Shown: positions 1-11,334 of the stretch, piece by piece
How positions within the stretch are numbered: position 1 is the first letter of the stretch
How the letters are laid out: the number at the start of each line of letters is the position of its first letter
Made by a program: the position numbers and the translations under genes
Notes under the pieces: generated by a model
The model's input: the letters and a program-made list of their open reading frames with translations, nothing else
Told to the model about the DNA's origin: nothing
Database searches by the model: none
IMG/VR virus record: IMGVR_UViG_3300021247_000264
Coordinates: 1 to 22,498 of that record
DNA length: 22,498 bases
Source of the DNA: a virus
Direction: 5' to 3' (one strand)

Positions 1-2222
1 GTGTGATTGTTCCACTTGTGTATGTAACTAACGAACCACCGTACTGAACAGATCCACTTACTACTGACGTTCCATTGAATGTTATTGGGTTACTAAGTAA
101 AAAGTTTCCGCTCCATGTACCACCTGATAACTCAATTGGTGCTGTACCTGATACAGCAACACCTACAGTAAGACCTGCAGTAATAAGCTTAGCAGAAGTT
201 GACGTATTGAAAACTTGTGTACCGCCACCTATAGTTGTTACTCCTAATGAATTTAAATTAGATATTAGAGTGACTATGCTGTTGGTATATAAGTTAGTTG
301 TTACATTTTTCCAAGAAATTAAAGACGTATCAATTGAACACGTACCTCTTAAAAATAACGTAGAGGTTGATGCGTTGTTTGTTCCTGATAAATATTTTAA
401 TATACCAGCCCCTGATTGATAATCTGTGGTAAAATATAATACAGAATTTGCAAAAGTAACATTACCGTCAAGAGTTAATGCTGTTGATAATCCATACGTG
501 TAAGCTCCTGTAGTTATTGTCCCACCTTTTGCAATAACCTCAGCTGTTCCTCCTGCTCCATTATTAAGTATAGTTATTCCCCCATTGACAGTAATTGTTT
601 CAGACGTGGTTTTATTGTATGTACCTGCCATAGTAAATAATCCATTAATAACAAGATTAGATGTTAACGTGATAGGATTTGCTCCTGAAATCATAGGTAC
701 ACCAAAGTTATTAAATGTTATTCCTGCTAAATTTAATGTGGCTGGACCACCAACCTGAAAATTAGAACCTGTTGTAGTGATAGTTCCGCTTACATAATTT
801 ACGGGCTTGTTTATAGTTATAAAGTTAACAATTGTTACATCTCCTTGAAAGTCTAACGGAAAAGCGAATCCTCCATACCCTGCTCCTGTATTAAGTGATC
901 CTCCTGTAGCTATATGTTTTGCTGTTCCTGTAGGTACACAGTTATTGCCAAAATATATTCCGCCTGCACAAGTTACTGTTTCTGTAGTGGTGCTATTGAT
1001 GATTGGAGATACTTGACCTGTGCCTGTTGACCAAAGACCGCCAATAATTAAATTGCTTGTTAAGGTTGTCGTTGAACTAGCGATAAACGAAATATTGTTC
1101 CATACTAACGCACTTGTATTTAATGTACAATTTGAAACAATGTTTAATGTACCTCCTGTTATGGTTCCACTTGTATAACTAATTGTTCCTGTGCCATAAT
1201 ACACATTACCACTGATAGTTACAGCACCATTAATATTCAAAGGAGCTGAGATTCCTGTAGTGTTTGTACCTGACCAAGTTCCTCCTGTTAGTGCAACTGT
1301 TGCAGTTCCTGCTAATACTGCATTTACTGCAATACCACCCCCGCAAGAAAAAATCTCTGTTATAGTCTTATTAATTGTTGTGCCTGCTGAAATTGTTACA
1401 AGAGCTCCTGTGCTAAAATTACCAAGCAATGTTTTTGTACCACCTGAAAGTGTTATAGGAACTTGCATGTTAACACCTGCATCGAATGTAATTGTTTGAG
1501 TTGAATTATATAAAGTTAAGGTTGCAGTGGTAATTCTTGTAATTACTCCACTTATATAAGTAAAAGAACTTCCTCCATGAAGTAGACTACCACCCATTGA
1601 TATATTCCCATCAATAGTTATAGGCATTGCAAATGGAACATTTGTAAATGTGCCTGCAGTCCAAGTTCCACCTTTTAAGATGATTGTAGCGGTTCCTCCA
1701 AATGTTTGATTTTCTGTACCTTGTGTTAATCCTCCATACGCATAAACCACTTCATTTGTGGTTTTATTTATATTTTGATTTCCATTATTTAAAAAAAGAC
1801 CATTTACAGTTAAATTAGAAGTTAATGTAAGTGTACCATAACCTGTATTAAAGTTATTAAATACAGCTCCATTAGAATTAAAATTAGGACCACCTCCATT
1901 AAACGTGCTTGTTCCTGCGTTAATTGTACCCAAGTTAGTAAAACCACCATAAGAACCAAGATTAGTTCCTGATAAAGCGACAATTCCATACACTGTCATT
2001 GGAACTCCTGTCTGAACCGCAGTCCATGTAGATCCATAAAAGTCTAATGCTGCAGTGCCGTTAATATAATTTGGACCTGTTCCTATACCTCCTGCTAACC
2101 CCCCATTTACAATTAATTTTTCTGTTGTTGTTTTATTTACAACTGCAGCAGGTGCGCCATTATATGCTCCTACGTAAAGTATACCATTAATTGTAAAATC
2201 ACCAACCAATGTAAATGTTCCA
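1..2222 (-). repeat. Six coding repeats of about 125 codons in the large adhesin
   Basis: The protein encoded here repeats a pattern of a hydrophobic SNLxINGLF-type strand, an N(K/S)TTTE-like turn, a GG(L/I) strand, a GTAxxxLxGGTW strand and a YxSGTIT strand. The N(K/S)TTTE-like turns lie at residues 310, 433, 565, 690, 817 and 953, giving a period of 123 to 136 residues. The copies are diverged at both protein and DNA level, so this is an old duplication. The last copy continues past the window edge. Such spacing suits stacked beta-solenoid modules. Confidence 0.7.
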
Positions 2223-3064
2223 GGAGCTACGGAAAGTGTGAGGCCATTAGGCCATGTTTTACCGTTAGACGTAATTGTAGCTGTAGCATTCAATTGCAAA
2301 TTGCTTGTTCCAGCAATAGTATAATTTGCACCAAAAGTTACATTTCCTGCAATTTGTAAAAGTGCGTTATGTGTCATTGTGGCTGTGTGCCCACTTGATA
2401 TACTAAGCGACAACACTGTTATGCCTGCTGATATAACGCTATTGCTATTTCCTAGGTCATCAAAAAATACTCCATCAGCAGATGTTGGAACACTTGCGTT
2501 ATTAGCTCCTCCTGATGTGGCGCTCCAATTCGTATTTACCGTAGCATTCCAATTAGTAGAACTACCTCCACCTACCCAATACCTTGAAGCATTGTGAAAA
2601 GTCATTCCATCCGCTATATAACTACTGTCTCCGCTTACATCTAGTTTCCACCAAGAAGGTAGTTCAACTTGCTCTATAGAAGTTATTATAATATCTTCAT
2701 CTAAATCATTGTATATTACATCCCCAACCTGCAAATCACTTGCATGGACAACATTCATATTTGCCCAAACAGATTGACTCTTATAGAAGTCAAAGGTTCC
2801 ATTAATTCTATAGAAGATCCAATCCCCGTGAATCCTTTGGAACACTTCATAACTTGTATTTACCAATACAGGAGGAACCCAATTACCATCTTCATCATAG
2901 TGTCCTACAGTATATTCTGCAGGATACATATCAGGAGTCCATAAAGTCTTGCCTTCGAGATGATTGATTATTTCAGCTCCTGTGTTGACATCGTATGCAA
3001 CTACAGCATCACCTATGTTTAGGTCATTAATATCTACATAGCCTGACGGTGTTAGTACTTGCAT
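1..3064 (-). CDS. Large beta-solenoid adhesin with N-terminal degenerate Hint domain (3' end off window)
   Basis: The reading frame is open from the ATG at 3064 to the left edge, 1021 residues, with an in-frame TAA shortly upstream, so the start is secure and the C-terminus is missing. Residues 2-158 look like a compact Hint domain: block A (VLTPSGY, residues 3-9, then VGD-type turns), a second VGD segment near 115, and a C-terminal block with SYIADG and a closing His157-Asn158. The usual first Cys is absent because the protein begins inside block A, and the expected TxxH motif is not visible. Residues 161-200 carry the RYWVGG...NW...W start common in large secreted solenoid proteins. From about 285 onward six imperfect repeats of 123-136 residues follow, each with an N(K/S)TTTE-like motif (310, 433, 565, 690, 817, 953) and most with a GGTW-like motif. 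It is probably a virion fibre or adhesin; the role is inferred from architecture only. Confidence 0.85.
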   Translation of the reverse strand, partial: MQVLTPSGYVDINDLNIGDAVVAYDVNTGAEIINHLEGKTLWTPDMYPAEYTVGHYDEDGNWVPPVLVNTSYEVFQRIHGDWIFYRINGTFDFYKSQSVWANMNVVHASDLQVGDVIYNDLDEDIIITSIEQVELPSWWKLDVSGDSSYIADGMTFHNASRYWVGGGSSTNWNATVNTNWSATSGGANNASVPTSADGVFFDDLGNSNSVISAGITVLSLSISSGHTATMTHNALLQIAGNVTFGANYTIAGTSNLQLNATATITSNGKTWPNGLTLSVAPGTFTLVGDFTINGILYVGAYNGAPAAVVNKTTTEKLIVNGGLAGGIGTGPNYINGTAALDFYGSTWTAVQTGVPMTVYGIVALSGTNLGSYGGFTNLGTINAGTSTFNGGGPNFNSNGAVFNNFNTGYGTLTLTSNLTVNGLFLNNGNQNINKTTNEVVYAYGGLTQGTENQTFGGTATIILKGGTWTAGTFTNVPFAMPITIDGNISMGGSLLHGGSSFTYISGVITRITTATLTLYNSTQTITFDAGVNMQVPITLSGGTKTLLGNFSTGALVTISAGTTINKTITEIFSCGGGIAVNAVLAGTATVALTGGTWSGTNTTGISAPLNINGAVTISGNVYYGTGTISYTSGTITGGTLNIVSNCTLNTSALVWNNISFIASSTTTLTSNLIIGGLWSTGTGQVSPIINSTTTETVTCAGGIYFGNNCVPTGTAKHIATGGSLNTGAGYGGFAFPLDFQGDVTIVNFITINKPVNYVSGTITTTGSNFQVGGPATLNLAGITFNNFGVPMISGANPITLTSNLVINGLFTMAGTYNKTTSETITVNGGITILNNGAGGTAEVIAKGGTITTGAYTYGLSTALTLDGNVTFANSVLYFTTDYQSGAGILKYLSGTNNASTSTLFLRGTCSIDTSLISWKNVTTNLYTNSIVTLISNLNSLGVTTIGGGTQVFNTSTSAKLITAGLTVGVAVSGTAPIELSGGTWSGNFLLSNPITFNGTSVVSGSVQYGGSLVTYTSGTIT

Positions 3065-3083
3065 GCTTCTTTAGTTTTAGTTA

Positions 3084-3503
3084 TTAGTAGTTTCCTGCGT
3101 AAGCTATCGCGTCTGTTTGGTCTGCAGCACTCGCGTAAACAGACTGACAAACAGTCATGATCTGACCTGATCTCATTATGACCGGTTGATCGAATGTGAA
3201 TATAGAAGTAGTTCCAATAGCTGTAGTACTTCTTGTAGCTGCAGCTGTCGCTACTTCTCCAATAAGTCTTGGATTCAATCCAGACGCGTCAGACAAGAAT
3301 ATACGATGAACCATGTTTGAAGAGGCTGCAGCTGTTAATTGAGCGTTTCTAAATCTGACTCCGTCGACCCTTGAACCATCAGCACCCGCTGTAACTAGAG
3401 TTACGAGTGCACCAGATCCGTCTGATGCTGTGTTAGCTGCTGCTATCCTAGCTGGTAAAAAGTTTCCAATTAAAGTGAATATTGGAGATGTGTTTGCTGG
3501 CAT
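3084..3503 (-). CDS. Small conserved phage structural protein, function unknown
   Basis: This 139-residue protein has no signal peptide or membrane segment. It is rich in Ala, Ser and Thr and contains a run of short beta-strand-like segments: AANTASDGSG (residues 23-32), a TAGADGSRVDGVRFRN stretch (38-53), an M(V)HRIFLSD strand (64-72) and a closing VCQSVYASAADQ segment. From memory this pattern matches a small family often seen beside tail-fibre or decoration genes in phages, but no biochemical role is known to me. It lies 19 bases upstream of the large adhesin gene and 18 bases after the 182-residue fibre protein, so it probably belongs to the same late transcript. It could be a decoration or adaptor protein; that is inference. 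Confidence 0.75.
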   Translation of the reverse strand: MPANTSPIFTLIGNFLPARIAAANTASDGSGALVTLVTAGADGSRVDGVRFRNAQLTAAASSNMVHRIFLSDASGLNPRLIGEVATAAATRSTTAIGTTSIFTFDQPVIMRSGQIMTVCQSVYASAADQTDAIAYAGNY

Positions 3504-3521: not shown

Positions 3522-4070
3522 TTATATGAAATTGTAGTAGTTGAATAGTTTTGCTGCTACTGGTTGTGGAGCATTAACGACGTTTAACGCAAGAGGCGTA
3601 AATGTCGCATAAGAAGAAGTTCCAAACAAAGATCCAGTGATGCTTCCAGATACTGATAAAGATCCTGTTACTGTATGCCTGTCTGTAATAATGTTTCCTA
3701 GATTGACTCCAGTAGTCTGAACTGTAAATTCATTATTTAAAACATTTACACTTCCGGATACTGCGAAAGATCCCGTAAACTCCATCGTGTCTGCAGCGAT
3801 CTCTATAACGTCACCGTCTATGGATACAACGTCACCGGAAATATCAAGTACGCTTCCAGTAGGACTGTAGATACTCAAAGATCCTGTAAGAGCTACTGAT
3901 CCCGTATTCTGCGCTCCCGTGGTGATTGCGGACTGTATGGTGTCAGTAGATCCAGACTTGCGTAGGAATATCCTACCGTCTGGGACGTTTAAGGCCAGTT
4001 CTCCTGGTACTAGGGAAGCTGTTGTAGGTAGCGATCCTGAAGTTAAACTTCTTTTTAATTGTATTGGCAT
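3522..4070 (-). CDS. Small repeat-rich fibre protein, paralogue of the 201-aa protein at 6567-7172
   Basis: This 182-residue protein starts MPIQLKRSLTSGSLPTTASL and continues with GELALNVPDGRIFLRK. That LxxGELxxNxxDGRxFxRK signature is common at the N-terminus of phage fibre proteins and resembles the N-terminal attachment domain of the Bordetella phage tropism determinant (Mtd_N-like). The middle is made of GSLSxSGS-type beta repeats, including a TGVNLGNIITDRHTVTGS block that is nearly duplicated in the 201-residue protein. The C-terminal 30 residues (ending KLFNYYNFI) differ from the paralogue. The gene lies 38 bases after the adhesin gene at 4109-5002. It is probably a fibre or adaptor subunit of the virion; receptor, partner and exact location are unknown. 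Confidence 0.75.
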   Translation of the reverse strand: MPIQLKRSLTSGSLPTTASLVPGELALNVPDGRIFLRKSGSTDTIQSAITTGAQNTGSVALTGSLSIYSPTGSVLDISGDVVSIDGDVIEIAADTMEFTGSFAVSGSVNVLNNEFTVQTTGVNLGNIITDRHTVTGSLSVSGSITGSLFGTSSYATFTPLALNVVNAPQPVAAKLFNYYNFI

Positions 4071-4108
4071 GTCTTATATAAATATCTTTGTTATTTGTAT
4101 CTTAAGAG

Positions 4109-5002
4109 TTAATATATTGAATAGTAGGAGTTTATGTTTGCGTTTATGTTTGCTCTATTTGTAGTTTGATTAGAGTTGTAAATTACTATTTCTTGATAAA
4201 CAGTATTATAAACTGCGCTTTCATTCCAGTTTCTACCTAAAAACAAAGTGCCTACATTGTTTGTTCCGGCATTACCTGATGCCACTAAATTATTATTGTG
4301 ATAAAAATAAGAATTATTACCGTTTGACAAAGTTGATATTAAAGAATACGATGGTCTACTTAAACTATCTCCTATCGCAACGCCTGAATATAAATATGTT
4401 CTGGTCGCCGGTATTGATGAGTCTACACTAATTTCAAATCCAGCATCTGTGTTTGCTTGGTTTGCAGCTGATAAAACTGTTTTAAATGAAACGGCATTTG
4501 TGTTTGGTAATGCAAGAACAAATACGGAAATTGGTTGTGAAATATTTAATACCGCAGTCATTCTCCCCCAAGGATTTACGGTATCACAACTTACAACTGG
4601 TTTACCATTAAGTAAAAATATAACTGAATTTCCAACAATTTGAGGTTGCCTTGCGGTGGTTGTTTCAGTTGCATTTTTTGAATTCCCACTTTGATCGTAC
4701 CATGTAGTAACAAATCCGCTTCCTGCTCCACAGAATGTAAGAAGCGACGCTGTATCTAAAGCGTTGTTTACGAATCCTATATCAGTTTCAGTATTATCAC
4801 TTGACCTTCTTACTCTTATAGCGGCTCCACTATAAGCTGTCCTTAGTTTACGCAGTGAATAAGCAACTATCGCGCTAGAATAAGTGTCCAAAAGAAGTGG
4901 TGGCGGTGGTGGAGTAACGCTTGTCGTAAACCTTCCTCCGAAAGATCCTCCCTTAAGAGTAATCATTCCCCCCTGTCCCGTACTAGTTAGTGTTAGTGCC
5001 AT
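4109..5002 (-). CDS. GH54-like / concanavalin-like adhesin paralogue 1 (297 aa)
   Basis: One of five paralogues in this window. Residues 1-25 form the shared glycine-rich anchor (MALTLTSTGQGGMITLKGGS, then FGGRF), followed by a PPPPP linker at 31-35. Residues 37-107 carry the family core: LLLDTYSSA, AYSLRKLRTAYSGAAIRVRR, IGF, LDTASLLTFCGAG and WYDQSGN (101-107). This order matches the start of the alpha-L-arabinofuranosidase B (GH54) catalytic domain, which has a concanavalin-like sandwich fold. I cannot locate the GH54 catalytic residues, so enzyme activity is not claimed. The rest is beta-rich and ends in the family tail NINSYYSIY. Binding of host surface glycan is the likely role. Its start follows a leftover tail fragment of another paralogue (5006-5032). 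Confidence 0.85.
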   Translation of the reverse strand: MALTLTSTGQGGMITLKGGSFGGRFTTSVTPPPPPLLLDTYSSAIVAYSLRKLRTAYSGAAIRVRRSSDNTETDIGFVNNALDTASLLTFCGAGSGFVTTWYDQSGNSKNATETTTARQPQIVGNSVIFLLNGKPVVSCDTVNPWGRMTAVLNISQPISVFVLALPNTNAVSFKTVLSAANQANTDAGFEISVDSSIPATRTYLYSGVAIGDSLSRPSYSLISTLSNGNNSYFYHNNNLVASGNAGTNNVGTLFLGRNWNESAVYNTVYQEIVIYNSNQTTNRANINANINSYYSIY

Positions 5003-5005
5003 TCG

Positions 5006-5032
5006 TTAGTATATTGAGTAGTATGAGTTTAT
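5006..5032 (-). pseudogene. Remnant C-terminus (INSYYSIY-stop) of an adhesin paralogue
   Basis: Directly after the stop of the 512-residue gene, the minus strand reads ATA AAC TCA TAC TAC TCA ATA TAC TAA in a frame shifted from that gene. It encodes INSYYSIY-stop, the conserved tail of the adhesin family. There is no start for it, and it fills almost the whole gap before the next gene. It is best explained as the displaced original 3' end left when the upstream gene acquired a LamG domain. Confidence 0.75.
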
Positions 5033-6567
5033 AATCCAAATCTTGTTTTTCTTGCGTTATAATTTTGAAGAACTTCTGGAGCTGTTAAAGCTCTATTATA
5101 CATTTGAGCTATCGGAATATAACCTTTGAAACATCTTGAATTTACTGATCTTGATCCTATTCCCCAGGTATTAGCGGTGTTTGCTCCGTTTACAGTACTA
5201 GCAAATATAGAATCTTGTACTCCATTTATGTATATTATTTTTGATGTTCCATTGTACGTACACGTAACATTATACCACGTATTTTGATTTATTAATGTGA
5301 TTGAATAATCTTCAACGCCGTATCCTGTAAGATTAGCTATATAAAAATCTACTTTACTTGTATTCACATTCATGCCTACTGCCCAACCTTTTGTACCGTC
5401 TAGACTTACATTTGAGAAAAAATCAACAACATTGGCAGCGTCAGGATTTCCATTTCCAGTTTTATAGATCCACACAGAAATACTACCGCTTGTCGATAAG
5501 CTTATGATTGGTGTATCTACATAATCATTAGATCCATCGAATATAATAGTTCCTGTGGGAACTGAACCGTATGTTGGTCCATTAATTAAGGTTCCGTTAT
5601 TACTATTTCCGCTTAAATCAGTCCAAGTAGTTCCTGATCCTGGATATGAAGATATGTTTGCCGCGTCTAAGCTTAGCACTAATCCAGTAGTTACTATTGG
5701 AGATTCCGCACCAAGAGCCTCGTAGATTGAATAATAAGAGTTTACGTTTGTCTCTATTGGTACTCTATTTGAAATTTGATCTGACGGATATAATACGATT
5801 TCTTGATAGTGACCTGTTACGTTCCATCCTCCAGGAAAATTAGAAATTCCAAAACTTGTTAAATTACTTCCCAAAGTTGGAAAGAATTGAGTCGATAGTA
5901 TTGGTAAATTTATACTATAATTTGTAAAAGCTTGACCCTGAGTTGTTGTTGAAGTTAAAATTGAATTTTTATATCTAGAGGTAAGCCCCATTGAATCAGG
6001 TCCTGATCCTGCGCCTGGTGAACCTGCTAAGTTATAACCCCCGTTAATAGTATTAACTACAAAATTACCAGCATCGTTTATTTTAAATACTTCAAATAGC
6101 GACAACGCTGTATTAGCAGTGTTTACTGTACTATTGACCATAGCATCATCAACTCCATCAAAATAAATCGCTGGCTTGTTATTCACAAGTTCTACGACTC
6201 CAGTATTTACTATTCTCGGTTGAGTTGTAGTGGTGGCTTGCACAAGATTTTTAGCATTACCACTTTGATCGTACCAAGTAGTCACAAATCCGCTTCCTGC
6301 TCCACAAAAAGTTAATAGAGTTGATGTATCTAATACATTAGCAACAAATCCAATATCGATTTCTGTATTATCGCTTGATCTTCTTACCCTTATTGCAGCG
6401 CCACTGTAAGTGTTTCTTAACTTGCGTAATGAATAAGCTGTTGCAGCTCCAGAATATACATCTAAAAGTAGCTGTAATAATACGTACCTAGCCTTAAAAC
6501 CTCCAGTAGAGTTTCCAGAGACCTTTAGTCTTCCGCCCAATCCCGTATTTGATATTAGTACTGGCAT
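5029..6567 (-). CDS. Two-domain adhesin: GH54-like half plus C-terminal LamG domain (paralogue 2, 512 aa)
   Basis: Residues 1-282 are a full member of the five-paralogue family: glycine-rich anchor (MPVLISNTGLGGRLKVSGNS), YSLRKLRNTYSGAAIRVRR core, TFCGAGSG, WYDQSGN at 98-104, and the family tail NSYYSIY at 276-282. Unlike its relatives it does not stop there. It runs through a short linker (EALGAESP) into a LamG / concanavalin-like domain from about 290 to 512, with LVLSLDAAN, TWTDLSGNSNNGTL, FDGSNDYV, WYNVTCTYNG, IYINGVQ and the usual closing NRALTAPEVLQNYNA. The ATG overlaps the stop of the 201-residue gene (TAATG), with GGAGG 9 bases upstream. The protein probably adds a second glycan-binding site to the appendage. 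Confidence 0.88.
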   Translation of the reverse strand: MPVLISNTGLGGRLKVSGNSTGGFKARYVLLQLLLDVYSGAATAYSLRKLRNTYSGAAIRVRRSSDNTEIDIGFVANVLDTSTLLTFCGAGSGFVTTWYDQSGNAKNLVQATTTTQPRIVNTGVVELVNNKPAIYFDGVDDAMVNSTVNTANTALSLFEVFKINDAGNFVVNTINGGYNLAGSPGAGSGPDSMGLTSRYKNSILTSTTTQGQAFTNYSINLPILSTQFFPTLGSNLTSFGISNFPGGWNVTGHYQEIVLYPSDQISNRVPIETNVNSYYSIYEALGAESPIVTTGLVLSLDAANISSYPGSGTTWTDLSGNSNNGTLINGPTYGSVPTGTIIFDGSNDYVDTPIISLSTSGSISVWIYKTGNGNPDAANVVDFFSNVSLDGTKGWAVGMNVNTSKVDFYIANLTGYGVEDYSITLINQNTWYNVTCTYNGTSKIIYINGVQDSIFASTVNGANTANTWGIGSRSVNSRCFKGYIPIAQMYNRALTAPEVLQNYNARKTRFGL

Positions 6568-7602: not shown

Positions 7603-8988
7603 TTAGTATATTGTGTAATACGAATTTACGTTTGCGTTAATTGCAGATAAATTTATAGATTGATCCGAGTTATATATTACGATCTCTCTGTTCCAACCTT
7701 GTAAGTTAATTGCGGTATCTAAGCCTCTTCTACCTATGGATATCGTTCTTGTTCCCGCAGCAGATAGAGCCGTAGTATTCGTTGTACTTGATTGAGAATT
7801 ATTGATATATGCTTTAGACGCTCCAGTAATACGAAGTAGCGAACCTAAAGTCCAATTATTAAAAGCAGTGCCAAAAGAACCAACATTCACACCTCCAGTT
7901 TGTATTTGCACTAAATCTACTCTGCAGTCAAAGTTTGCATTGTTATCTCCAAAAAAAGTTCCATTCGGTCCGCCGTTTGTTCTTCTAGCTAACCAAAAAG
8001 TTGATATAGACGTACCTAAAGTGGTACTATTTGTATCTAAATAGTTGCTTCCTCCATGCCATACAGCAGAAGTTACTTTATTGTCAGGATTAATTAGTAT
8101 CTGAGGTTGGTTACTTGTTGTGACTTGGATTGCGTCTAAAGAATTTCCGCTCTGGTCGTACCATTTTGTTACATATTGAATATTTTGACTTGCCGTTGTT
8201 TTCTGATACGGTTGCGCTTTATATCCAATATTTAGTTGCGATCCCCATGCGTAAAAGGCATCTGCGCCAAGACCTGTATATGTCAAAGCCGCAACGGTAC
8301 CAGAATTATTACCGCTTATTATTATCGTTGTGCCTGAAGGATTTTGAAAAGTTACAGAACATCTATACCATCCATTTCCAACGCTTTCAATATTCGTTGA
8401 TATCGGAGTGACTGATCCTACAGATGTTGGAGCTAAACCATTTTGAATATCGAATATCACTTGTATTCCAGAACTATTACTCAATTCTAACATCACGTAT
8501 CTTCTCGCTATATATCTTAAATAAATTGAATACGTGTAAACATACCCAGTTGCAAATGATTGATTTTCATATATTCTATGTACTTCATTTCCAGAACTTT
8601 CTGAAAATTTATCAGCTGTAGTAGTGCCATCAGGAGCCTGTATTGAGTCTACAGTTATTGTGCCTCCGTTTTTTGTCCAATACACGTTAGAGTAATCTTC
8701 AGAATACAGAGTTAAATTTTGATAACCCGCGAACGACGATAAGGATCCTGTGTCCAAGTTTTTTCCTATGAATCCTATATCTTGCTCAACGCTATCAGAA
8801 GATCTTCTAACTCTTATAGCACTACCTGTATACGCAAATCTAAGTTTACGTAGAGAATACGCGGCAGTCGCTCCAGAATACGCGTCTAACAATAAAGGAG
8901 TAACTGTAGAAGTCATAAGACCTCCACGACCTAGATTTCTAAATCTTACTACCGAACCCTGACCGCTATTTGTTATAGTTATTCCCAT
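7603..8988 (-). CDS. GH54-like adhesin with nested carbohydrate-binding-type insert (paralogue 3, 461 aa)
   Basis: The family anchor covers residues 1-25 and the core YSLRKLRFAYTGSAIRVRR 44-62. After LDTGSLSSFAG (79-88) the GH54-like domain is interrupted: residues 90-268 form a separate module with NLTLYSEDYSN, TKNGGTI, APDGTTTADKF, ESVGNGWYRCSVTF (201-214) and FYAWGSQLNIG. This is the pattern of a CBM4/9-like domain widespread in phage tail fibres. The host domain then resumes with VTKWYDQSGN at 273-282 and continues to the family tail NVNSYYTIY. The TFCG Cys of the uninterrupted paralogues is lost at the insertion site. The ATG directly abuts the stop of a leftover tail fragment (8989-9018). 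Glycan binding is likely; enzymatic activity is unsupported. Confidence 0.85.
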   Translation of the reverse strand: MGITITNSGQGSVVRFRNLGRGGLMTSTVTPLLLDAYSGATAAYSLRKLRFAYTGSAIRVRRSSDSVEQDIGFIGKNLDTGSLSSFAGYQNLTLYSEDYSNVYWTKNGGTITVDSIQAPDGTTTADKFSESSGNEVHRIYENQSFATGYVYTYSIYLRYIARRYVMLELSNSSGIQVIFDIQNGLAPTSVGSVTPISTNIESVGNGWYRCSVTFQNPSGTTIIISGNNSGTVAALTYTGLGADAFYAWGSQLNIGYKAQPYQKTTASQNIQYVTKWYDQSGNSLDAIQVTTSNQPQILINPDNKVTSAVWHGGSNYLDTNSTTLGTSISTFWLARRTNGGPNGTFFGDNNANFDCRVDLVQIQTGGVNVGSFGTAFNNWTLGSLLRITGASKAYINNSQSSTTNTTALSAAGTRTISIGRRGLDTAINLQGWNREIVIYNSDQSINLSAINANVNSYYTIY

Positions 8989-9063: not shown

Positions 9064-9966
9064 TTAAAAAATTGAATAAAATGTATTTGTATTACTAACT
9101 ATTCCTGTCCTATTGCTTGATTGATCTGTTTTATAAATAATTATTTCTGAAATTTTTGCCGTTGACCTAAAATTGAAATATCCGCCAATAATTGAATAAG
9201 ATGTAGGGCTTAACGATGCTGCACTTAATGAAAAAGAAAAAATAGTATTATTTTGGTATATATAATAATTTGATGAATTAACAACACAATTAAATATTAA
9301 AAAATTTGTATTTGCATAGTTTGGAATAGTTCTTACAAAATTATATGTTCCATTTAACCCGCCACCAAAAGCATAGTCAGAACCGATACTACTTGCAAAA
9401 TAACCAAAAAATACTGTAGGTGCTCCTGAGCCACCTAACATTGGTCCATATAAAGATAAACTATCACCTTTACCAGTCATGAATATGCTGATATTGGTAT
9501 TTGATAAAATAGGAGTTGCAATTTGTAATGAATGGTCTGAACTTGCTAAAAACCTAATAGATGGCTTTGAGTTTTGCGTTTGTAAAACCCCACTAATAAC
9601 AATTAGTGGTGGTTGATTAACGCCTGCAATATATGTAGCATTATTGCCATTACCGCTTTGGTCATACCAAATTATTACAGATCCATCACCACTACCACAA
9701 AATGTTAATAATGTAGTTGTGTCTAATTCACCATTAACATTAAACCCAATATCAGTTTGTGCAAAATCACTTGACCTTCTTACCCTTATGGCTGCACCCG
9801 TATAAGCAGTACGCAATTTGCGAAGTGAATAAGCGGCAGCAGCACCGGAATAGGTATCAAGCAGCAAAGGAACCGGATCAGCCCCATACTGGAATCTCCC
9901 TCCAAGACCTCTGCTTGATATGGAGACTCTTCCGCCGTAATTGTTACTTGTGATCCTTATTGCCAT
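9064..9966 (-). CDS. GH54-like / concanavalin-like adhesin paralogue 4, mosaic (300 aa)
   Basis: The family anchor (MAIRITSNNYGGRVSISSRG, then LGGRF) is followed by LLLDTYSGAAAAYSLRKLR (34-52), the GAAIRVRR segment, LDTTTLLTFCGSG (81-93) and WYDQSGN at 100-106. The remaining two thirds is beta-rich and ends NTNTFYSIF, a diverged form of the family tail. Base composition changes within the gene: the 5' 200 bases (about 9760-9966) are visibly richer in G and C, while the rest is very AT-rich. Together with the stranded tail fragment downstream (8989-9018), this suggests that the 3' part came from another source. Its ATG lies 9 bases after the stop of paralogue 5. Likely a glycan-binding virion appendage; catalytic residues of GH54 were not identified. 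Confidence 0.83.
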   Translation of the reverse strand: MAIRITSNNYGGRVSISSRGLGGRFQYGADPVPLLLDTYSGAAAAYSLRKLRTAYTGAAIRVRRSSDFAQTDIGFNVNGELDTTTLLTFCGSGDGSVIIWYDQSGNGNNATYIAGVNQPPLIVISGVLQTQNSKPSIRFLASSDHSLQIATPILSNTNISIFMTGKGDSLSLYGPMLGGSGAPTVFFGYFASSIGSDYAFGGGLNGTYNFVRTIPNYANTNFLIFNCVVNSSNYYIYQNNTIFSFSLSAASLSPTSYSIIGGYFNFRSTAKISEIIIYKTDQSSNRTGIVSNTNTFYSIF

Positions 9967-9975
9967 TGACTTTTA

Positions 9976-11334
9976 TTAGTATATTGTGTAGTATGAGTTT
10001 ATGTTTGTGTTTATCGCTGCTAGATTCGATGTCTGATTTGTTGTGTATAATATGATTTCCGATATATTACCGTTATAGTATAATGCTCCAGTACCTAAAA
10101 TTCGACCTATTTGTAGTTTATTATTTATAGTCACAGCGCTGGTTGGTAATGCCGAAGTTCCTAAACTAGTATTATTGATATAGTAGTCCGAACCCGTGTT
10201 TTTGAAAATAGCCGAGGTTAGCTTCTGAGCTGTAACTGCTGTAAACGTAAAGTTAGCATCGTTAGCGTAGTGAGCTATACTAACTTGCGAAGTAGATCTG
10301 TATCCTATACCAACAATGGTATTAGGACTGCCCCCTGTATAGTCGATTCCTATGAAATATCTATCATTTCCTATTGTCGATTGAGTTTCTACTACAAAAG
10401 CAGTATACGCTGTATTGGTTAAGAAAGTAGCATCATTTATTGTCCTTAATTCGTAAGGATTAATATAGTAAATAGAAGATTGGTTTTTTACGTCTTTTGC
10501 TATGATCATAGGTTGAAGACTAGTTGACGCTTGTTCTGCGTTTCTAGTGTTTCCACTTTGATCGTACCACTTTGTAATATATCCAGTATTTGTACTTTGA
10601 GTTGCTGAATACGTTTGATATCCGTTATTTGTTAATTGAGCGCCCCATGCATATACGCTTGTTGTGTTATAAACACCGCACGTAATCGCACCATTATATA
10701 CTCCAGTAACAGAACATCTATACCAACCATTACCTACACTCTCTATTTTAGCGTTAGTTCCAAAAGTCTGAGTTGTTATCGTTCCAGTATCTAAATTAAA
10801 AGTAGCTTGCGATAAAAAACCTACTGAGGTCTTATAAATATATAAATCACAAGTTGATTGAGTTGATTTTTTTAAATAACAACTAAATATGAATGACAGT
10901 GTTGTTGATGGTGAATGATCTTGATAAATATTAATTTGCGTAGCTTGCGTTATTAAATCTGCAGTTGTTGTGCTATCTGGTGCAGTTGTTGCATTTGCTG
11001 TAACTGTGGTACCACCTAATTTTGTCCATATCGCATTATCAAACTCTTGTGTAAAAGCTAATAAGTTTTGACTTCCAACAAAATTATTTAACGATCCTGT
11101 ATCTAATGTATCATTAACAAACCCAATATCGGTTTCAGTATTATCACTTGATCTTCTTACTCTAATCGCAGATCCAATATACGTGTTTCTTAGCTTTCTT
11201 AAAGAATACGCAGCAGAAGCTTCAGGATATAAATCGAGTAATAAAGATTTCCTATAAATAGTCTTAAACCTTCCAGAAGTTCCGGAAAACTTAAGCTTGC
11301 CGCCAAGTCCGTTATATGATAAAGTAACTCCCAT
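9976..11334 (-). CDS. GH54-like adhesin with nested carbohydrate-binding-type insert (paralogue 5, 452 aa)
   Basis: The anchor is MGVTLSYNGLGGKLKFSGTS, then GRF, and the core YSLRKLRNTYIGSAIRVRR lies at 43-61. As in the 461-residue paralogue, a second module replaces the loop after LDTGSLNNFVGS: residues 90-249 contain NLLAFTQEFDNAIWTK, APDSTTTADL, ESVGNGWYRCSVTG (198-211) and YAWGAQL, then the host domain resumes with ITKWYDQSGN at 253-262. The C-terminus is the family tail NINSYYTIY. The start overlaps the stop of the 96-residue gene (TAATG) with GGAGG 9 bases upstream. Insert and host domains both have beta-sandwich-like sequence. Function is inferred as surface sugar binding on the virion. 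Confidence 0.86.
   Translation of the reverse strand: MGVTLSYNGLGGKLKFSGTSGRFKTIYRKSLLLDLYPEASAAYSLRKLRNTYIGSAIRVRRSSDNTETDIGFVNDTLDTGSLNNFVGSQNLLAFTQEFDNAIWTKLGGTTVTANATTAPDSTTTADLITQATQINIYQDHSPSTTLSFIFSCYLKKSTQSTCDLYIYKTSVGFLSQATFNLDTGTITTQTFGTNAKIESVGNGWYRCSVTGVYNGAITCGVYNTTSVYAWGAQLTNNGYQTYSATQSTNTGYITKWYDQSGNTRNAEQASTSLQPMIIAKDVKNQSSIYYINPYELRTINDATFLTNTAYTAFVVETQSTIGNDRYFIGIDYTGGSPNTIVGIGYRSTSQVSIAHYANDANFTFTAVTAQKLTSAIFKNTGSDYYINNTSLGTSALPTSAVTINNKLQIGRILGTGALYYNGNISEIILYTTNQTSNLAAINTNINSYYTIY

Follow-up and report, generated by a model that had tools for sequence, protein, structure and literature searches.

A Hint domain leading a phage adhesin lacks the residues for N-terminal splicing chemistry and keeps the C-terminal His-Asn

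The first 158 residues of an adhesin encoded by a T4-like phage form a Hint domain. The same domain is found on related adhesins in 10 other viral contigs and in 4 genes of Candidatus Staskawiczbacteria (CPR), and the architecture is a family that is not confined to the phage analysed here. In alignments, the domain falls exactly at the junction of Met1 and Ala2 in what is otherwise a normal phage adhesin. Judging by the residues lost and kept, it is probably specialised for C-terminal cleavage by Asn cyclisation, which would leave the adhesin with the Ala N-terminus native to it. New here are the existence of a family, its precise position relative to Met and Ala, the loss of N-terminal chemistry while His-Asn is kept, and a tandem paralogue without the Hint domain; our search of the open-access literature found no description of such a leader Hint domain.

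Results

The window, i.e. the whole stretch of DNA that was analysed (22,498 bases, one IMG/VR virus record), comes from a T4-like phage, with a capsid protein that is 53-65% identical to its counterparts in Microcystis phage Mel-JY01 and Flavobacterium phage immuto. The adhesin reading frame lies on the minus strand and runs from 3064 off the contig end, with the opening residues MQVLTPSGYVDINDLNIGDAVVAYD. The features of this region are as follows:

2..2590, minus strand: adhesin proper, residues 159-1021, predicted beta-solenoid, running off the contig end (AF2 of residues 1-460; Hint-free relatives)
2588..2590, minus strand: Ala159 (+1), equivalent to Ala2 of the Hint-free adhesins, not a splicing nucleophile
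2591..3064, minus strand: Hint domain, N-terminal leader of the adhesin, residues 1-158 (AF2, Foldseek, hhalign to BILs, 10 viral and 4 CPR relatives)
2591..2596, minus strand: block G His157-Asn158, predicted cleavage after Asn158 (invariant in 15/15 members; 8/8 in HN-independent scans)
2606..2653, minus strand: block F, residues 138-153, F:4 = Lys140 and F:13 = Ser147 (family alignment, hhalign, gp41-1 alignment)
2765..2806, minus strand: block B equivalent, residues 87-100, INGTFDFYKSQSVW (in the hhalign columns, B:10 His = Gln97 and B:7 Thr = Tyr94)
2993..3058, minus strand: block A remnant, residues 3-24, VLTPSGYVDINDLNIGDAVVAY, the Cys1-containing start being absent (aligned to gp41-1 residues 10-32 and to BIL block A)
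3071..3073, minus strand: in-frame TAA just 5' of the adhesin ATG (sequence; similar upstream stops in L044, L049, L055, L057 and L061)
3084..3503, minus strand: small gene upstream of the adhesin (relatives in 41 viral contigs, mostly followed by a Hint-free adhesin)

Because of the in-frame TAA, the ATG is the true left limit of the Hint domain, and there is no N-extein beyond the Met. The same stop led us to reject a frameshift fusion to the upstream gene; an internal restart at Met154 was also rejected because Met154 is not conserved. AF2 predicts numerous short beta strands in residues 159-460, as would be expected of a solenoid. No confident match to a solved structure (PDB) was found for the part beyond the Hint domain, and the name adhesin is therefore based on the repetitive composition of the protein and on the virion genes around its gene. 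Elsewhere in the window, between 4109 and 11334, are five minus-strand paralogues (4109-5002, 5029-6567, 7603-8988, 9064-9966 and 9976-11334) that share an N-terminal module around YSLRKLR.AY.G.AIRVRRSSD and differ in their remainders; this set looks like an expanded receptor-binding cassette.

The first-pass annotation had assigned residues 2-158 to a Hint domain, and both structure prediction and profile comparison agree. The AF2 model of the domain, built from 11 sequences, is confident for most residues (pLDDT block means 67-96) and shows the Hint fold; its best 50 Foldseek matches in the PDB are all BIL, intein or Hedgehog structures, hence all Hint folds, the best of them being Tetrahymena BUBL BIL2 (6y75, 6tmm; 1.5e-6). 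The end of the domain forms strands in this run and is of low confidence in a longer run (residues 1-460), exactly at residues 146-158. When searched alone against Pfam, the window sequence gave only sub-threshold matches near residues 2-32 (PT-HINT, E 0.02; Hint_2, E 0.11; Hint, E 0.25) and did not reach the gathering score (15.4 bits for PT-HINT, cut-off 27.7). Once the relatives are included, the assignment is clear, PT-HINT matching 9 of 11 members (best 2.4e-5). The 15-member family profile matches the gp41-1 intein (E 8.6e-5) and the Clostridium thermocellum BIL 2lwy (E 5e-4), and also finds Tetrahymena BIL2; when compared by hhalign with canonical Patescibacteria BILs, it yields a probability of 99.6 and E 1e-24. 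No endonuclease Pfam match was found within the 158 residues, a size that is typical of mini-inteins and BILs.

Nine IMG/VR contigs with the same arrangement were identified with a degenerate DNA pattern for YI.DG...HNA, a profile scan added one viral member (L072), and the four Candidatus Staskawiczbacteria genes were found with a second pattern, a genome scan with the family profile having yielded nothing. Searches of IMG/VR with the window Hint domain alone and of a phage collection with the Hint domain of one relative found no relatives; in such direct searches with single sequences, only the distant fractured TerL intein of Vibrio phages surfaced. Among the weaker Patescibacteria matches, those that were read are ordinary BILs, many of them in large surface proteins, and fall outside the leader family.

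Reading frames are open through the Hint domain in all members. In the viral genes, block A follows the start codon almost at once, and a stop codon is often found a short way upstream; three CPR members carry an N-terminal signal-peptide-like segment directly before the domain. The genes around the Hint-plus adhesins are virion genes of different phage types, including tail sheath and tube, head-tail adaptor, tail proteins and head maturation protease. In most viral members, the domain has a GC content like that of its contig; in L060 and the CPR members, it is slightly lower than the contig's. For the only unsaturated close pair (L057/L061), dN/dS of the Hint domain is 0.28; the overall range is 0.13-0.80, the other pairs being unreliable due to saturation and extreme GC3. 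In one CPR protein (L219, 1112-8000), the Cys1-less Hint domain is internal and follows a long N-terminal region; C-terminal cleavage there would yield two proteins from one. In L055, an insert at 3575-4168, ALHSLLVLRYPKNAPDSVMVRDLVVGDQVYKL, resembles a second partial Hint segment.

All viral members share the start M-x-[VIL][LR]TP.GY. Cys1 and the block-B TxxH are absent in 15/15 members, and both are kept in nine of nine aligned control BILs. The block-B His, the most conserved intein residue with two exceptions known at the time of a 2014 review (PMC4031507), is replaced by Gln97, which, like Ser98, is invariant in 15/15 members; the gp41-1 alignment pairs B:10 with Ser98 rather than with Gln97, and neither is His. 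At the block-B Thr position, the window has Tyr94 and the relatives mostly Phe. The F:4 position is Lys140 in the window and Arg, Glu or Leu in the relatives, with Arg as the family norm and Asp in none, and F:13 is His in most members and Ser in the window (Ser147), L049 and L072. At the other end, residues 148-158 read SYIADGMTFHN, followed by Ala159. All 15 members have His at G:6, Asn at G:7 and Ala at +1, a conservation that is partly circular, most members having first been found with a pattern containing HNA; two scans with motifs other than HN recovered eight members in all, 8/8 with HN|A. Invariance extends to Gln97, Ser98, His107 and Trp138.

As read from this alignment, the pattern is selective, with the N-terminal reaction apparently disabled and the C-terminal residues retained. 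The annotation had described a block A-like start, SYIADGMTFHN immediately before Ala159, and a first Cys and TxxH missing with His-Asn kept; the ORF translation and the family alignment confirm this description, and the His157-Asn158 pair, for which it had proposed a comparison of homologues, is conserved throughout the family, including the members recovered without HN. Two outcomes that the annotation had listed as refuting, a predicted structure lacking the Hint fold and homologues that have freely lost His-Asn, were thus looked for and did not arise. Its term degenerate is too weak, since the residues of the N-terminal reaction are gone whereas His-Asn is invariant: the domain looks specialised, not simply decayed.

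Hint-free relatives of the adhesin are far commoner than Hint-plus ones and begin with Met-Ala exactly at the position of Ala159. The small upstream gene is followed by a Hint-free adhesin in about 30 of its 41 contigs, and 28 of 30 Hint-free adhesins found via this neighbour begin with Met-Ala (counted by eye); a whole-record search of 19 neighbour-gene relatives detected no Hint domain. A scan for M-A-x-x-[FY]-W starts found at least 120 contigs, and related Hint-free N-termini occur in the named phages Limnohabitans phage DC31 and Methylophilaceae phage P19250A. In a 50-sequence alignment, Met1 is followed by a gap and then by Ala159. In L067 (5001-8679), a Hint-plus and a Hint-free adhesin are tandem paralogues, 50% identical from the Ala to the end. 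Because the Hint-free relatives start with Met-Ala at Ala159 and the L067 paralogues align from that same Ala, the domain maps exactly between Met1 and Ala2, with no linker between its end and the native adhesin N-terminus. On the Hint-free relatives, removal of Met1 by methionine aminopeptidase would leave an Ala N-terminus. Adhesins of about 280 residues occur both with and without the domain. The presence of the domain is patchy, and the adhesin tree implies two to three gain/loss changes, with weak support that does not resolve their number.

Discussion

The evidence favours one-sided cleavage after Asn158, which the annotation had named first and a folded cap second, because the Hint-free relatives begin with Met-Ala exactly at Ala159; this reading is probable. 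Since the domain has no Cys1, block-B His, Asp F:4 or +1 nucleophile, neither an N-terminal reaction nor splicing is expected, and the leader would carry out the second half of the intein reaction only. Under this scheme, the domain would fold and Asn158, helped by His157, would cyclise, breaking the Asn158-Ala159 bond and freeing an adhesin with an N-terminal Ala, the same end that Hint-free relatives would have after loss of Met1. Cleavage would conceivably occur during or after folding and before or during virion assembly, and the freed N-terminus may be what the adhesin needs.

Asn can cyclise even if the N-terminal step has not taken place, and Asp F:4 has been proposed to restrain this cyclisation; the F:13 His can assist, although it is not required in all inteins (PMC4031507). 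Removal of Cys1 and/or mutation of the F:4 Asp makes C-cleaving inteins (PMC9033041; PMC12245125), those without the F:4 Asp being faster (PMC9033041). The gp41-1 intein accepts most +1 residues and fails only with Asp, Glu and Pro, whereas its D107K variant, with Lys at F:4, is inhibited in C-cleavage (PMC12245125). Two features of the window count against cleavage, namely Lys140 at F:4, as in D107K, and Ser147 at F:13, a position that is His in most relatives.

The resemblance of Lys140 to the inhibitory gp41-1 change, together with the loss of N-terminal chemistry, would also suit a domain that stays uncleaved as a folded cap or docking module at the N-terminus, with HN-Ala kept for folding or by co-evolution of the domain with the adhesin start, and the invariance of Gln97, Ser98, His107 and Trp138 indicates that conservation is not limited to cleavage residues. 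Nevertheless, we consider such a cap unlikely: most relatives start with Met-Ala and have no cap, few positions are invariant and both chain-breaking residues and the +1 residue belong to them, and the domain ends, without a linker, exactly at the native N-terminus. Less likely still is a decaying intein or BIL relic that has no present role and is tolerated at the protein end. The absence of Cys1, TxxH, Asp F:4 and the +1 nucleophile and the patchy presence would be compatible with decay, but the same losses and retentions recur in 15 members across different phage backbones and a CPR lineage, the frames are open in all of them, and the unsaturated pair has a dN/dS of 0.28. That the domain is half of a split intein, with a separate short peptide bringing the missing Cys1 strand for a reaction in trans, appears highly improbable. 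Fractured TerL genes with split inteins do occur in related settings (Vibrio phage 1.244; L245 in the L072 phage); however, the block-B His and the +1 nucleophile that splicing requires are missing as well, the signal-peptide-like segment stands directly in front of the domain in three CPR versions, and no N-terminal partner was noticed in the window, itself a fragment.

One-sided cleavage can be extended to a broader proposal, held more tentatively and with prospects just short of even: the leader Hint domains would be a natively evolved, C-terminally self-cleaving family, an optional cassette that in several phage backbones occupies the exact Met1/Ala2 junction of adhesins and in CPR bacteria follows signal peptides, and that first masks and later uncovers the functional N-terminus of a surface-binding protein. 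If so, they would be the natural counterpart of the C-cleaving inteins engineered by removal of Cys1 and Asp F:4, and would show a Hint domain serving as a removable leader rather than as a splicing element. The L067 paralogues, with and without the domain, make the gain to a phage adhesin from a self-removing cap directly testable, and purification tags might be made from natural C-cleaving domains that have Ala at +1.

Relation to known inteins and BILs

The leader domain is a variant of the Hint/BIL kind, distinct both from splicing inteins and from typical A-type BILs. Type A BILs (C. thermocellum 2lwy; Patescibacteria BILs) share with it the Hint fold, the C-terminal His-Asn, the non-nucleophilic +1 residue (HN|A in 15/15 members) and the location on variable surface proteins. 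The BILs used for comparison differ in keeping Cys1 and the block-B TxxH, which serve the N-terminal thioester and are both absent from the leader family, and in lying between two flanks, whereas the leader domain in most cases opens the protein or adjoins its N-terminal end. Class 1 mini-inteins such as gp41-1 share the Hint fold and the similarity in blocks A and F/G (the family-profile match given above). Of the class 1 set (Cys1/Ser1, Thr B:7, His B:10, Asp F:4, HN, Cys/Ser/Thr at +1), the leader domain keeps only HN; without Cys1, the block-B His and Asp F:4, and with Ala at +1, the class 1 route is not possible, and class 1 splicing was rejected given the lack of an N-extein and of nucleophiles. 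Neither does the domain carry the class 2 set (Ala1, Cys+1, Ser at G:6; PMC4031507), its +1 being Ala and its G:6 His, or the class 3 set (Cys F:4, Trp-Cys-Thr), F:4 being Lys, Arg, Glu or Leu and block F having no Cys.

Laboratory C-cleaving inteins (delta-I-CM D422G, Npu D118G, gp41-1 C1A/D107G) likewise have lost the first nucleophile and/or the F:4 Asp and set free a C-terminal cargo, as is predicted for the adhesin; they are engineered and have Gly at F:4 (PMC9033041, PMC12245125), whereas the leader domain is natural and has Lys, Arg, Glu or Leu there. Tetrahymena BIL2, the best structural match, comes from a eukaryotic BUBL locus, and its Cys1 was mutated (C1A, according to the entry titles), whereas the leader domain has no Cys1.

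Other Hint-type sequences were observed alongside the family. In Vibrio phage 1.244 (L002, 602-3749), the large terminase is encoded as two overlapping genes, the first with an intein N-part (CVWGETKIL) ahead of a GIY-YIG-like stretch and the second opening with an intein C-part that ends in YIADGITFHN|C. The L072 contig, which also carries a leader Hint adhesin, has an ORF (L245) with a Hint domain near the N-terminus ending in GLLHHN|TT, followed by terminase-like sequence. Canonical BILs (Cys1, TxxH, and HN followed by a charged residue) are present in L246, L248, L250, L251, L275 and L276, inside surface-type proteins of Patescibacteria of about 1,800 residues.
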